This document shows positions 3,569 through 31,325 of a DNA stretch of 55,467 nucleotides, one piece after another. Within the stretch, counting starts at the first letter, position 1, and every line of letters begins with the position of its first letter. A program made the position numbers and the translations under genes. The stretch spans positions 93,653 through 149,119 of the forward strand of contig JABHSE010000001.1 in the NCBI GenBank assembly GCA_018697035.1, read 5' to 3'. The notes under the pieces were generated by a model. The model searched no databases. It saw nothing but the letters and a program-made list of their open reading frames with translations, and was not told the origin of the DNA. The DNA is from an archaeon. Its GTDB lineage: Archaea; Nanobdellota; Nanobdellia; Pacearchaeales; GW2011-AR1.

Positions 3569-5502
3569 TAGGAGTTTTCTGTGATTATGTTTTTAATTTT
3601 ATCTACGGAGGTTGGATTGACGAGTGTCATTAATCCTTCTGGTTTTTCATTAATCAAAAGAGCTTTTAGAATTCGTCTCATGATTTTGCCGGATCTTGTT
3701 TTCGGAAGGTCTGGGACGAAGAAGATTCTTGCAGGTCTTGCCGTTGGTCCTATTTTGATGTCGACGTATTTTCTAAGTTTTTGTTCTAGTTTTTTACCTG
3801 GCTTTCCTCTTTTTAGTACGACGAATGCGATTGGAACTTGTCCTCTCATTTTATCTGGCATTGGAACTACTGCTACGTCGCCGACTTTTCTATTGTCATG
3901 GATTGCGTTTTCGACTTCTGCTGTTGCAAGTCGATGTCCTGCGACTTTCATTACGTCGTCGGTTCTTCCTGTGATTCGGATTAGTCCATCTTGGAGATAA
4001 GCTCCATCTGATGTGTCGTACATGGTTTTGAATTTTTTCCAGTATGTGTCGACGTATTTTTTATGATTATTGAATACACCGTGGAGCATTCCTGGTGCGA
4101 AAGGGCTTGTTTGTGCTAGAAATCCTTGTCTGCCTTTTGGCATTGGTTTGCCTTTGTCATCTACGATTACGTGTTTAATTCCTGGGAAAGATTTTCCGGA
4201 TACTGTTGGGACGAATGGTCCAATGCCTGGAATTGTGTTAATTAAAGTTCCGCCTGTTTCGGTTTGCCACCATGTGTCGATGATTGGGCAACGGGAGCCT
4301 CCGATTGTTTTGAAGTACCACATCCATGATTTTTTGTCGATTGGTTCTCCTACGGTTCCGAGTATTTTTAGTGAAGATAGGTCGTATTTGGTTATCCAAT
4401 TTTGTTTGATTTTCATGAACATTCTGACGGCTGTTGGTGCGGTGTAGAATACGTTGACTTTGTGATCTTGGATTATTTTCCACCATCGTCCTGGGTTTGG
4501 GAAGTCTGGTCCGCCTTCGTAGACTAATGTAGTTGCTCCTGTTAAGAGTGGACCATACATTGCGTAGGTGTGGCCAGTTACCCATCCAATATCTGCTGTG
4601 CACCACATTACGTCTTCAGGGTGTAGATCGAAATTCCATTTGCATGTCCAGTAGGCTTGTGTTGCGTATCCTCCGGTATCGTGGACGACGCCCTTTGGTT
4701 TGCCGGTTGTTCCAGACGTGTAGAGTAGAAACATTGTGTCTTCGGAGTTCATCATTTCTGGTTTACAATAGGATTCAGCTTTTTCTAATTCATCGTCAAA
4801 GTCTAGAAATTTTCTTCCTCTGACTTTTTTACCAATCCTATTTACGACTATTATTTTTTGCACAGTTGTTCTTTTGGCTGCCTTCTTTGCTTTCTTTAGG
4901 AGATTTTCTGGTTTTCCTCTTCGGTAGTATCCATCTGATGTGATTAGGATTTTTGCTTTGCCGTCTTGGATTCTTGCCTTTAGTGCATCTGATGCGAATG
5001 CTGAGAAGACGACTGAATGGATTGCTCCGATTCTTGTGCATGCTAGCATTGCGATTAGGGCTTGTGGTATCATTGGAAGATAGATTGAAACGACGTCGCC
5101 TTTTTTGATTCCGTTTGTTTTTAGGACGTTGGCGAATTTGTTGATTTTGTTATGGAGTTCTCCGTATGATATTTTGATTGGTTTTTCATCTTTTGGTTCG
5201 GGTACCCAGATGAGTGCGGTTTTTTCTGGATGAGCTAGATGTCTGTCGACGCAGTTTACTGAGAAGTTTAGTTTTCCGCCTTTGAACCATTTGAAGTAAG
5301 GTAGTTTTTCTTCATAAGTTTTGTCCCAGTCTTTGCTCCAAGTTAGGCCTTCTTTTGCTAGATCTCCCCAGAATTTGATTGGATCTTTTGCAGCTTGTGT
5401 GTAGATTTTTGGGTCGGTTATATTGGCGATTTTTTTGAGTTCTTCGCTTGGATAGAATTGGTTGCCTTTTTTGACTACATATTTTATGCCTCTTTTTTTC
5501 AT
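3568..5502 (-). CDS. acs: acetyl-CoA synthetase, AMP-forming
   Basis: The 644-residue protein matches the usual length of Acs. It carries the P-loop-like motif LLYTSGTTGKPKG (residues 259-271), WWQTETGG in the adenylation core, DVMKVAGHRLATAEVE at the hinge, and KTRSGKIMRR near residue 610, whose lysine is the catalytic and acetylation-regulated site in this family. It makes acetyl-CoA from acetate, ATP and CoA. A GGTGAT ribosome site lies 6 bases before the ATG, and a TTTATAAAG box about 35 bases upstream, so this unit has a short leader. Acetate-forming archaea usually use the ADP-forming enzyme, so an AMP-forming one suggests acetate uptake, which is inference. Confidence 0.95.
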   Translation of the reverse strand: MKKRGIKYVVKKGNQFYPSEELKKIANITDPKIYTQAAKDPIKFWGDLAKEGLTWSKDWDKTYEEKLPYFKWFKGGKLNFSVNCVDRHLAHPEKTALIWVPEPKDEKPIKISYGELHNKINKFANVLKTNGIKKGDVVSIYLPMIPQALIAMLACTRIGAIHSVVFSAFASDALKARIQDGKAKILITSDGYYRRGKPENLLKKAKKAAKRTTVQKIIVVNRIGKKVRGRKFLDFDDELEKAESYCKPEMMNSEDTMFLLYTSGTTGKPKGVVHDTGGYATQAYWTCKWNFDLHPEDVMWCTADIGWVTGHTYAMYGPLLTGATTLVYEGGPDFPNPGRWWKIIQDHKVNVFYTAPTAVRMFMKIKQNWITKYDLSSLKILGTVGEPIDKKSWMWYFKTIGGSRCPIIDTWWQTETGGTLINTIPGIGPFVPTVSGKSFPGIKHVIVDDKGKPMPKGRQGFLAQTSPFAPGMLHGVFNNHKKYVDTYWKKFKTMYDTSDGAYLQDGLIRITGRTDDVMKVAGHRLATAEVENAIHDNRKVGDVAVVPMPDKMRGQVPIAFVVLKRGKPGKKLEQKLRKYVDIKIGPTARPARIFFVPDLPKTRSGKIMRRILKALLINEKPEGLMTLVNPTSVDKIKNIITENS

Positions 5503-5556: not shown

Positions 5557-5850
5557 TTACATTAATCCCTGCTCGTCGATTCCAGCCTCGTCGTTGTCTA
5601 CTGTAGCTGGTTCTTGTTGTGTTGGCGTTTTGTGTTCTGTTAAATCTGAGGAATCTATTGAATTGATCATTGCTTTGAAGTCTTCGAATTTGTCGGCTTT
5701 GATTCTGACGCCCGCTTTTGTAAATCCCGTGTAGTTTTGAGATGTTACGAATTCTCTTATTGTTAGGCCTGGTTGTCCGCCGAAGTCGTCGATTCTAATT
5801 ATTATTTTTGTTTCTTCATTCTTTGGTATTTCGCCAATATCTTTTTCCAT
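5557..5850 (-). CDS. PC4-like (transcriptional coactivator p15) ssDNA-binding protein
   Basis: The protein of about 97 residues has the PC4 core: IIIRIDDFGGQPGLTIREFV, then YTGFTKAGVRIKADKFEDFKAMI. In eukaryotes and archaea such proteins bind single-stranded DNA and affect transcription or repair. The C-terminal 35 residues are acidic and disordered-looking. I chose the ATG at 5850 because a TTATAAA box lies about 25 bases upstream (5871-5877), fitting a leaderless transcript; a TTG 15 bases earlier is also in frame. It lies just upstream of acs in the same direction but acs has its own TATA box. Confidence 0.75.
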   Translation of the reverse strand: MEKDIGEIPKNEETKIIIRIDDFGGQPGLTIREFVTSQNYTGFTKAGVRIKADKFEDFKAMINSIDSSDLTEHKTPTQQEPATVDNDEAGIDEQGLM

Positions 5851-5942: not shown

Positions 5943-6139
5943 AAAAAAATAAAAGGAAGGCTAAATAACCGAAGCTTTTTAACCTTCCAACATTCAACCG
6001 AAGCTGAACGCTCAAATCCGAAGACTTGAATATAAAAGGAGAGTACAGATTTTTTACGTCACCTCTCTCCAATTTAACCGAAGTCAAATATCAGCTAGGT
6101 TGAAGTTCAACCGAAGTCGAAATCCAAATAAACTGAATA
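5943..6139 (-). ncRNA. candidate structured RNA with five tandem UUCG-capped hairpins
   Basis: Read on the minus strand, CUUCGG occurs five times (plus-strand CCGAAG at 5969, 5998, 6018, 6078 and 6111). Each copy is the cap of its own stem: UUCGAC/GUUGAA, AUUUGAC/GUUAAAU, UUCAAGUC/GAUUUGAG (outermost pair U-G), AGCGUUCAGC/GUUGAAUGUU, and a 15-pair stem with one mismatch. The stems use G-U wobbles that would be A-C mismatches on the other strand, so the minus strand is the transcript. A further stem GGAGAG/CUCUCC (6065-6070 with 6038-6043) closes a loop of about 21 nt. The last stem (5955-5988) is followed by a U-rich run (5943-5954), like an intrinsic terminator. A TATA box lies at 6160-6167. 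I recognise no known RNA family; it lacks the conserved RNase P RNA blocks. Confidence 0.7.
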
Positions 6140-6159
6140 GTTATAGAGAGTATTCGGTA

Positions 6160-6167
6160 ATTATAAA
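6160..6167 (-). promoter_or_regulatory. TATA box of the UUCG-hairpin RNA
   Basis: The minus strand reads TTTATAAT here, within GCTTTATAATTACC. If the spacing seen at the protein genes of this window holds (about 21 nt from the end of the box to the start), transcription would begin near 6139. That is just upstream of the first UUCG hairpin. Confidence 0.5.
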
Positions 6168-6269
6168 GCTTTCTTACAACTTTTTAGGGATTACTATTAA
6201 TATTGTTTCTGATATTGGGTTCTAATATTGAGTATCAGTATCGGTGTTCTATTTTATTTTATGGATATT

Positions 6270-6350
6270 TTGAATAAAGTTTTCGCTGGGGCACACCTCG
6301 CTTCGATAGAACGCCTACACCCTCTCGCACTTTGCATCTCTTAAAAATAT
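6270..6350 (-). repeat. possible degenerate member of the gene-end hairpin family
   Basis: Read on the minus strand, the downstream side of tRNA-Ser contains CCCCAGCGAAAACTT, which resembles the conserved bulge RCTGCGAACTTG of the hairpin family described at 17783. The inner stem is not clear. The stretch also repeats 12 bases of the tRNA 3' end (6311-6322). The evidence is weak. The remaining bases from 6171 to 6411 show nothing else I can name, apart from a small perfect hairpin ATCGAA/TTCGAT around 6390-6404. Confidence 0.25.
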
Positions 6351-6411
6351 TTATCCGAATTTATTTTATCCGAAGCGAAGATGCTCAAATCGAACTGTTC
6401 GATTCTAGAAA

Positions 6412-6492
6412 CGCCTACACCCGGAATCGAACCGGGGTACCCCGAAGGGTCCGCCTTAGCAGAGCGGTGCAATACCATTATGCGATGTAGGC
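6412..6492 (-). tRNA. tRNA-Ser (anticodon GCU)
   Basis: The minus strand folds into a cloverleaf. The acceptor stem is GCCTACA/TGTAGGC and the D arm is GCATAATGGTATTGC. The anticodon stem is CCGCT/GGCGG with loop CTGCTAA, giving anticodon GCT. A long variable arm closed by CCC/GGG around TTCG follows, then the T arm CCCGG-TTCGATT-CCGGG and discriminator G. The extra-long variable arm fits serine, and GCU reads AGC and AGU codons. No intron is needed and CCA is not encoded, which agrees with the CCA-adding enzyme gene at 38681. Confidence 0.95.
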
Positions 6493-6518
6493 ACTGAATT
6501 TTTAGAATAACAATTCTT

Positions 6519-6524: not shown

Positions 6525-6544
6525 GTTTTCTACTGGTATATTTT

Positions 6545-6803
6545 GTAGGCAGGTTGGCGTGTTAGCCCCACGCTTTTCGCAAATGGGCTTTATGGCGGAC
6601 TGCAAGGTGGGATAGTGATATGAAGTTTCACATGTTGATAATTTGACGTTGAGGTTTTGTCCTCTTTGATCTTGCCTTGATGAATCGGGTCAGAGGGAGG
6701 AATCCCAGCAGCCCTAAGTTAAGGTTTAGGTGCTTGGAGGGTTGCAGAACTGAGGATAATTGTTTTCCTCTGTGTAGCGAATTTGAGCTTCCCACTGGCC
6801 TAC
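6545..6803 (+). ncRNA. ffs: signal recognition particle RNA (7S RNA)
   Basis: The ends pair (GTAGGC at 6545 with GCCTAC at 6798-6803). Helix 8 is unmistakable: GGGTCAGAGGGA, the GGAA tetraloop at 6699-6702, then TCCCAGCAGCCC, which includes the GGUCAG and AGCAGCC halves of the symmetric internal loop that binds SRP54. The length of about 259 nt suits an archaeal SRP RNA. It would assemble with SRP19 and SRP54 to target secreted and membrane proteins, which are very numerous in this window. The exact 5' and 3' ends are set from the terminal helix. Confidence 0.93.
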
Positions 6804-6907
6804 ATTTTTGTTTTATTCGCTAAATTCTTGATAAAATAAATACTCACGTACGCCTGTACGCTTCGCATTTTTTTACACTTCGAATTTACCAGACTAAAAT
6901 CAAAATG
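6803..6907 (+). repeat. gene-end hairpin element, copy 1 (after SRP RNA)
   Basis: The inner stem is CGTAC/GTACG (6847-6851 with 6856-6860) with loop GCCT. TTTTTTTACACTTCGAATTT follows, corresponding to the conserved bulge of the family. The outer arms CATTTTTGTTTTA (6803-6815) and CTAAAATCAAAATG (6894-6907) are largely complementary. It sits directly behind the SRP RNA and before the next promoter, so it may end or process that transcript. Confidence 0.6.
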
Positions 6908-29774: not shown

Positions 29775-31325
29775 ATGGTTGAAGTGAAGAAGATTTCGGA
29801 TTTTGAATGGGTCCTCTCCGGACATGACTCTGGTGAGCCCGAATTCCTTGTTTCTGGAGGCATGAAAGTTCCGGGTCGGGTTTTTTCTAGTGATGAGCTT
29901 ATGAAGGGTGTTGGCGATGGGGTCCTTGAGCAGGTTAGGAATGTGGCTAAGTTGCCTGGGATTTTGAAGGGGAGTTTTGCTATGCCTGATATGCATCTTG
30001 GTTATGGGTTCTCAATCGGAGGTGTTGCGGCTTTTGATTTGGATGAAGGTGTGATTTGTCCTGGTGGTGTTGGTTATGATATTAATTGTTCGGTGAGATT
30101 ACTTAAGACTAATCTTAGGGAGAGTGATTTGAAAGGGAAGGAGAAAGAGTTGGTTCATAGTTTAGCTCGGTGTGTTCCGTCGGGTGTTGGTGTCAAGGGT
30201 TCTATTTTATTAGATGGGAAGAAGTTGGATAATGTTTTGATTGGTGGGGCTCGGTGGGCTGTTGAGAATGGTTATGGTTTTGAGCAAGACTTGAAGCATA
30301 TTGAGGATGAGGGGAGGTTGGAGGGGGCTGATGTGAAGGCGGTTAGTGCTAAGGCTAAGGGACGTGGTATGAATCAACTTGGGACGCTTGGTGCTGGGAA
30401 TCATTTCTTGGATGTGCTAATCGTCGACGAGGTTTTTGATAAGGATGTTGCTAAGGTGTTTGGATTGGAGATGGGGCAGGTTGTGATTATGATTCATTGT
30501 GGGTCTAGGGGTCTTGGTCATCAGGTTGCGACGGACTACATTCGACTTATGTCTGAATGTGGGGGTTCAGATTCTGTGAATCTAGGTGGTTCACAGTCAG
30601 AGATTGTGGGTGGTTCGAAGACTGTGTCTTTGGGTGGTTCATCGCAAAGCGCGCCTCGGCAAGTACCCTCTGTGGAGGGCAATGGGGGCTTGGTGGAGTT
30701 TGCTAAGGTTGGTTTGGCTTGTGCTCCGATTAAGAGTGATATTGGTAAGAGGTATTTTGGTGCGATGAATGCGGCTGCTAATTTTGCGTTTGCTAATAAG
30801 CAGGTTATTAGTCATTTTGTTAGAGAAGATTTGAAGCATTATTTTCCTGAGTTTGAGGCGGAAGTTGTTTACGATATATGTCATAATATTGCTAAGGTTG
30901 AAGAGCATGAGGGTAAGCGGGTATTGGTTACTAGGAAGGGGGCGACTCGGGCGTTTGGGCCGGGGCGGGTTGAAGTGCCTGAGGATTATCGTGAAGTTGG
31001 TCAACCAGTTTTGTTGCCTGGGAGCATGGGGACGTCGAGTTATGTTTTGATTGGGACTAATGAGAATAAGGCGTGGGGGAGTTGTGCACATGGGGCGGGT
31101 CGTGCTTGTAGTCGGAGTGAAGCACATGATAAGATTAGTTTTGAGGAAGCTGTTTTGGATATGGAGAAGCGTGGGGTTTTTGTTGAGGCTGGTAAAAAGA
31201 AAGGGATGATTGAGGAGTCGCCGTTTTCGTATAAGGATGTGACGGAAGTTGTAAGGGTTTGTGATGAGGTTGATTTGGGGAAGAGGGTTGCGAGGCTGAG
31301 GCCGAAGTTGGTTGTAATCGGGTAA
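29775..31325 (+). CDS. rtcB: RNA-splicing ligase RtcB
   Basis: The 516-residue protein has GGVGYDINCSVRL (metal-binding Cys), LGTLGAGNHFLDV and VIMIHCGSRGLGHQ. The late HGAGRACSRSEA has a histidine corresponding to the one that is guanylylated in RtcB. RtcB joins tRNA halves after intron removal and repairs RNA with 2',3'-cyclic phosphate ends. About 40 extra residues, rich in Gly and Ser, replace the short loop after GHQVATDYIR (about residues 262-305) and come from a 24-nt tandem repeat. It is too short for an intein and lacks intein blocks. Confidence 0.95.
   Translation: MVEVKKISDFEWVLSGHDSGEPEFLVSGGMKVPGRVFSSDELMKGVGDGVLEQVRNVAKLPGILKGSFAMPDMHLGYGFSIGGVAAFDLDEGVICPGGVGYDINCSVRLLKTNLRESDLKGKEKELVHSLARCVPSGVGVKGSILLDGKKLDNVLIGGARWAVENGYGFEQDLKHIEDEGRLEGADVKAVSAKAKGRGMNQLGTLGAGNHFLDVLIVDEVFDKDVAKVFGLEMGQVVIMIHCGSRGLGHQVATDYIRLMSECGGSDSVNLGGSQSEIVGGSKTVSLGGSSQSAPRQVPSVEGNGGLVEFAKVGLACAPIKSDIGKRYFGAMNAAANFAFANKQVISHFVREDLKHYFPEFEAEVVYDICHNIAKVEEHEGKRVLVTRKGATRAFGPGRVEVPEDYREVGQPVLLPGSMGTSSYVLIGTNENKAWGSCAHGAGRACSRSEAHDKISFEEAVLDMEKRGVFVEAGKKKGMIEESPFSYKDVTEVVRVCDEVDLGKRVARLRPKLVVIG
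30566..30637 (+). repeat. 24-nt imperfect tandem repeat inside rtcB
   Basis: Three units of 24 bases, each starting TTC and ending GTGG, follow one another at 30566, 30590 and 30614, with a partial fourth. Each encodes eight residues ending in a Gly-Gly-Ser step. AGATTC/GAATCT and CACAGTC/GACTGTG inside it can also form small hairpins. Confidence 0.8.

Follow-up and report, generated by a model that had tools for sequence, protein, structure and literature searches.

Evidence for a Noncoding RNA Gene of UUCG-Capped Hairpins in One Family of Pacearchaeota-Related Archaea

Predicted Architecture of the Locus

The window, a stretch of 55,467 nucleotides from an archaeon of the Pacearchaeales, carries a putative RNA gene between the gene of a PC4-like protein and tRNA-Ser(GCU). 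Its predicted parts and its neighbours are as follows.

5557-5850, minus strand: gene of a PC4-like small ssDNA-binding protein (Pfam PF02229, E 0.0023, below the curated cut-off), the next gene downstream
5943-5954, minus strand: U-rich tail UUUUAUUUUUUU, predicted terminator (from sequence and the U-run in homologues)
5955-5989, minus strand: unit B hairpin III, GGAAGG..CCUUCC with CUUCGG at 5974-5969 (from the fold and covariation of 15 pairs)
5991-6012, minus strand: unit B hairpin II, CUUCGG at 6003-5998 (from the fold and a match to covariance model R1)
6013-6029, minus strand: unit B hairpin I, CUUCGG at 6023-6018, its first bases overlapping the linker (from the fold)
6028-6037, minus strand: U-rich linker UUUUAUAUUC between units A and B (from sequence)
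6038-6071, minus strand: unit A hairpin III, GGAGAG-AGG-UGA..CUCUCC with an internal loop and no UUCG cap (from the fold)
6073-6089, minus strand: unit A hairpin II, CUUCGG at 6083-6078 (from the fold and conservation in unit-A copies)
6090-6139, minus strand: unit A hairpin I, an inner stem with CUUCGG at 6116-6111 on an outer stem that starts at the predicted 5' end (from the fold)
6159-6168, minus strand: TATA box CTTTATAATT, preceded by a BRE-like AGAAAG, predicted start at about 6138 (from sequence and spacing in homologues)
6411-6493, minus strand: tRNA-Ser(GCU), the upstream neighbour
6543-6805, plus strand: archaeal SRP RNA (RF01857, E 9.1e-15, 68.3 bits against a gathering score of 96.5)

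A preliminary description of this DNA had proposed an undescribed RNA of five UUCG hairpins on the minus strand, with a TATA box and a final GGAAGG/CCUUCC stem followed by a U-run. All five caps lie on that strand, and the promoter (6168-6159) and terminator elements are present as claimed. The picture of an undescribed, structured and strand-specific RNA with its own promoter and terminator is retained. The count is revised: a sixth hairpin (6071-6038), which lacks a UUCG cap, closes the first of two three-hairpin units, so that the window copy is a tandem of unit A and unit B rather than a row of five.

Perfect CUUCGG stems of at least five pairs occur four times in the window, always at 5943-6139, and the terminal stem of the RNA is a fifth with one mismatch. 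The minus strand from 6139 to 5943 folds with a minimum free energy of -62.9 kcal/mol (z = -5.7, none of 200 shuffles as stable) versus z = -3.7 for the plus strand. With GC content regressed out, none of the 1106 tiles of 197 nt in the window is as stable, and the SRP RNA gene ranks second. The longest closed ORF inside the predicted transcript has 8 codons, in line with the earlier view that no protein is encoded. A search of the window RNA against Rfam 15 gave no match at the gathering score or at E<=0.5, which agrees with the proposal that no known family fits. The best match at E<=10, RF00242 (E=1.4), was dismissed as chance. On the homologous loci, Rfam matches are limited to tRNA and SRP RNA.

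Homologues and Covariation

BLASTN against 90 relatives finds homologues within the genus. A pattern of two neighbouring caps matches 16/16 genomes of the genus and 45/181 of the family, versus about a dozen matches for the reversed control. Pattern loci without a stem (G099, G050, G008x, and G005x) were dropped.

The last two hairpins of 34 loci were aligned (alignment A3). Standard pairs fill 88.7% of the pair cells, compared with 71.8% after shuffling and 34-54% when slid. Doubly changed cells number 163 versus 49.5±8.8 in shuffled alignments (0/500), and 19 of the 23 pairs have changed on both sides. RNAalifold, unprompted, recovers both helices. Since the loci came from a pattern that fixes part of the caps, the alignment overstates cap conservation, and cap sequence statistics, being biased in this way, are not used as main evidence; the pair counts outside the caps and the promoter distances are independent of the search pattern. 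Covariation extends over every helix and not just the last one. Furthermore, compensatory changes preserve the unit-A outer stem across six copies, that of the window and five from four other genomes. Judged by these alignments, the stems of the RNA are kept by compensatory changes. The test that the preliminary description had set, homologues with compensatory changes in DPANN genomes, is thereby passed. In the homologue stems, G·U pairs outnumber A·C combinations 108 to 14. This excess indicates that the selected strand is the minus strand, the one named in the preliminary description and also the more stable of the two in the window fold.

Distribution

With model R1 at E<=0.01, 69 of 180 family genomes are matched, usually with one to three copies each, and the absences are soft because most of these genomes are incomplete MAGs. 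Strong matches (E<1e-6) are spread over about 22 genera. In the window itself, R1 finds unit B with E 9.4e-12 (G000:C1:99595-99664, a training sequence) and unit A, which lies outside the training set, with E 4.0e-4. R1 matches 62/200 genomes of an order-level sample and 16/327 of a phylum-level sample, all inside one family; no match falls outside this family in either sample. Relaxing the R1 search on 38 family genomes that had given no match adds only five weak ones. This suggests that the patchiness is mostly real, or that the remaining relatives are very diverged. As far as these genome sequences reach, the range of the UUCG-hairpin RNA is one archaeal family, which it occupies unevenly.

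The strict two-hairpin pattern has no match in viral contigs, which gives no sign of a virus-borne element. A mobile element was ruled out on the basis of the usual one to three copies and the conserved neighbourhood.

Signals at Both Ends of the Predicted Transcript

A TATA-like 10-mer starts 27-31 nt before the first helix base in 36/46 loci (median 30). In most exceptions, the window among them, the first hairpin is longer, and it is its outer stem that starts about 30 nt after the TATA box; in the window, the box lies 30 nt before the base of the hairpin I outer stem. Moreover, 16 of 20 R1-found loci outside the training set have a TATA-like box at 27-30 nt. R1 knows nothing of promoters, so that this is an independent check. 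With such spacing, transcription should begin at the first base pair. At the other end, the outer columns of the 5' arm of the last helix are purine in 192 versus 26 cases, and the helix is followed by a U-run (six columns in a row with U in 27-29 of the 34 sequences). Unit B hairpin III of the window likewise has a purine 5' arm and a pyrimidine 3' arm. The window RNA hence combines the features of the family: two adjacent helices with a purine 5' arm in the second, a U-run and the TATA spacing.

A locus that ends in a hairpin and a U-run, with an upstream tRNA-Ser on the same strand in the window, might be a mere strong terminator or insulator between genes, for which a separate RNA would be irrelevant. 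A terminator, however, needs no TATA box, yet in most loci one stands at a constant distance of 27-31 nt ahead of the first helix. Covariation is seen in all helices and not in the last alone, no other gene in the window ends in such hairpins, and in genome G009 the tRNA lies on the opposite strand to the RNA. We consider this explanation improbable.

Taken together, a noncoding RNA gene family that is strand-defined, promoter-phased and terminated is strongly supported by sequence comparison, and the window locus very probably belongs to a real family of RNA genes. This family is previously undescribed, the literature searches having returned no report of a UUCG-hairpin RNA, and is confined to one family of Pacearchaeota-related archaea.

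Genomic Neighbourhood

In G028, G181 and 12 of the 16 genomes of the genus, the PC4-like gene directly follows the RNA on the same strand; in several other genera no more than 10 kb separates them. The gap is within about 1 kb in G012 and below 300 nt in most others, often 24-105 nt. This common neighbourhood supports common descent. It would also suit regulation in cis, with the RNA as leader or attenuator of the PC4-like gene: most transcripts would end at the terminal hairpin and U-run unless bound PC4-like protein, or some other signal, allows read-through, as in autoregulation. Yet the PC4-like gene of the window has its own TATA box (5880-5871), 30 nt before the ATG, and a TATA-like box lies at a similar distance in G009, G011, and G015. 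The RNA is moreover intact before other genes and in genomes without any PC4-like match (for example G029, G140, G155, G103, and G107). In other genera its neighbours are presumably infB-like, dph2-like, serS-like, gyrA-like and RRM genes, names that we assign from translated ORFs or start sequences. The separate TATA box, and the occurrence of the RNA without the PC4-like gene or beside unrelated genes, indicate that the RNA constitutes a separate gene; we regard attenuation as unlikely, though as the least improbable of the alternatives. PC4 folds bind ssDNA. A PC4-like gene is found in 155/180 family genomes, most of which are without the RNA. A search of named genomes with the PC4-like protein gave only three relatives, including SMBSF31 and Pacearchaeota RIFOXYB2_FULL_43_25.

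The preliminary description had also pointed to tRNA-Ser and SRP RNA as neighbours. Both are indeed neighbours of the RNA gene in the window, but this arrangement is local to part of the genus. The SRP RNA scores below the archaeal gathering score, and standard annotation would miss it at 6543-6805. A 13-nt repeat, AACGCCTACACCC, stands at 6310-6322 and 6410-6422: the 3' end of tRNA-Ser recurs 100 bp away, in the stretch that separates the RNA gene from the tRNA, and might be a trace of an insertion or duplication.

Tandem Units and a Second Architecture

A lone module with two or three hairpins is the rule among relatives, and most other genera carry one unit B. Unit A stands alone at the corresponding place in G005 and G008 and is followed by a decayed remnant in G009. 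Tandem duplication as in the window is also seen in G010, G014, G043, G156, and G157. The UUAUAUUC motif of the linker recurs at the equivalent place in other tandem copies. The uncapped hairpin III of unit A is kept in G005, G008, G009, G010, G023, and G140. Genome G010 (L004, L079) carries a tandem array next to tRNA-Ser and the PC4-like gene, made up of several unit-A-like copies and a single unit B. One of these copies has CUCG in place of the first cap and UUAG in place of the second, on stems that are kept.

Unit A hairpin III also bears on a base-pairing role. Its AGGUGA, together with the GGAGG-like 5' arms of the terminal helices, might mimic Shine-Dalgarno sequences and pair with the 16S rRNA 3' end, or with other mRNAs. 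AGGUGA lies in a weakly paired internal loop and recurs across genera, and a gene of the window probably uses the same motif to bind ribosomes (AGGTGATACTTCCATG ahead of its ATG at 5502). Against this, AGGUGA is replaced in one G010 copy by AGGCGA, opposite which stands a compensating G, and UAAUGA in G009 is fully paired; these variants indicate that the pairing is kept and the Shine-Dalgarno match is not. The GGAGG-like arms are buried in helices, and a search for the 16S rRNA 3' end in the genome's own assembly did not find it. Base pairing of this kind has, in our estimate, a low probability, comparable to that of a mere terminator.

A second architecture, type C, first appeared as weak R1 matches in ten genomes. 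It is a three-way junction in which GUAGGAG and CUCCUAC enclose two UUCG hairpins, followed by a U-rich tail. The TATA box lies at 30-31 nt in 10/10 loci, and the pairs show modest covariation. The corresponding model, R2, matches 17/180 genomes and has no match in the genus of the window. Type C and the hairpin-row type B occur together in G028, G163, and G181, which suggests paralogous or convergent small RNAs. Type C loci (L169 in G028, L173 in G181, L187-L194, and others) often lie just after an apparent tRNA 3' end.

Comparison With Known Systems

CsrB/RsmZ sponge RNAs titrate a protein with many stem-loops, and the loops of CsrB carry GGA for CsrA. The archaeal RNA resembles them in its proposed way of working, the titration of a protein by many stem-loops. 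It differs in its loops, the caps in the window and in homologues being UUCG rather than GGA; no CsrA is implied and there is no sequence relation.

In type III toxin-antitoxin RNAs (ToxI), repeat units are followed by a terminator and then a small gene, the same order as at the archaeal locus. However, the archaeal repeats are not near-identical, and the downstream gene is not constant, being PC4-like or, in other genera, unrelated, with no adjacent gene for a ToxN-like endoribonuclease. The psaA motif, with three successive hairpins that often carry UNCG tetraloops (PMC2864571), is similar as a row of three UNCG-type hairpins. It is the 5' UTR of psaAB in cyanobacteria, whereas the archaeal RNA, which matches nothing in Rfam, comes with a promoter and terminator of its own and precedes varying genes. 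STAXI repeats are often UUCG-looped and near ssDNA-binding protein genes (PMC2864571), and thus share tandem structured units, caps and gene neighbours with the archaeal RNA. STAXI units, by contrast, are pseudoknots in other organisms, whereas the archaeal RNA is predicted to form plain hairpins, with a U-run terminator and a TATA promoter; the window fold gives plain hairpins by a program that cannot predict pseudoknots.

Tandem units, a terminator and then a small protein gene might accordingly be read as a type III RNA antitoxin, or as a STAXI-like ssDNA element with a neighbouring DNA-binding protein gene. Besides the differences listed, the abundance of PC4-like genes in family genomes without the RNA speaks against this, and the G·U excess shows that selection acts on it as RNA. 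This is the least probable explanation considered and, in our view, highly improbable.

Possible Function

The reading we favour, with modest confidence, is that of a family-specific noncoding RNA gene that acts in trans as a stable protein-binding RNA. Comparison of the loci shows a TATA box that places the predicted start at, or within one or two nt of, the base pair that opens the first helix. Behind it stand two or three helices, nearly all C(UUCG)G-capped, with hardly any unpaired sequence between them. The last helix, with its purine 5' arm and pyrimidine 3' arm, is followed by the U-run, which should terminate transcription. The product is most likely a trans-acting, nuclease-resistant RNA with repeated protein-binding apices, which might serve as a scaffold or decoy. 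We infer such a role from stems kept by compensation and from the retention of the caps, the helix count and the signals at both ends. A guide or seed role is not favoured since no exposed stretch is long enough. As partner protein, the first candidates would be the PC4-like neighbour, as a binder of nucleic acid, and an Sm-like protein that binds U-tails. UUCG caps are generic stabilisers too, and because the fixed cap sequence results in part from the search pattern, it lends little weight to recognition of the caps by a protein.

The RNA is patchily distributed, being detected in about 38% of the family genomes (many of them incomplete MAGs), and this speaks against an essential role. A housekeeping function, which the preliminary description had considered, is doubtful as a role in all relatives, given this share and the lack of any match outside the family.

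DPANN archaea have very small genomes. More broadly, and only tentatively, the RNAs might form a lineage-specific small-RNA class of Pacearchaeota, modular and all-helix, with the 5' end at the first pair, the 3' end at the terminator and at least two architectures that may share a genome, as protein-binding RNP cores not known elsewhere; we think this somewhat improbable. No published search for RNA genes in Pacearchaeota was found in the literature searched. The fixed promoter distance, the covariation, the lack of an Rfam match and the one-family range make the RNA a firm candidate for a new RNP, and its small size and regularity ease testing.

Elsewhere in the window, the translation of positions 29775-31325 suggests an RtcB-like protein; around 30.5-30.7 kb it contains an insertion rich in Gly and Ser, of repetitive sequence (GGSDSVNLGGSQSEIVGGSKTVSLGGSS...).
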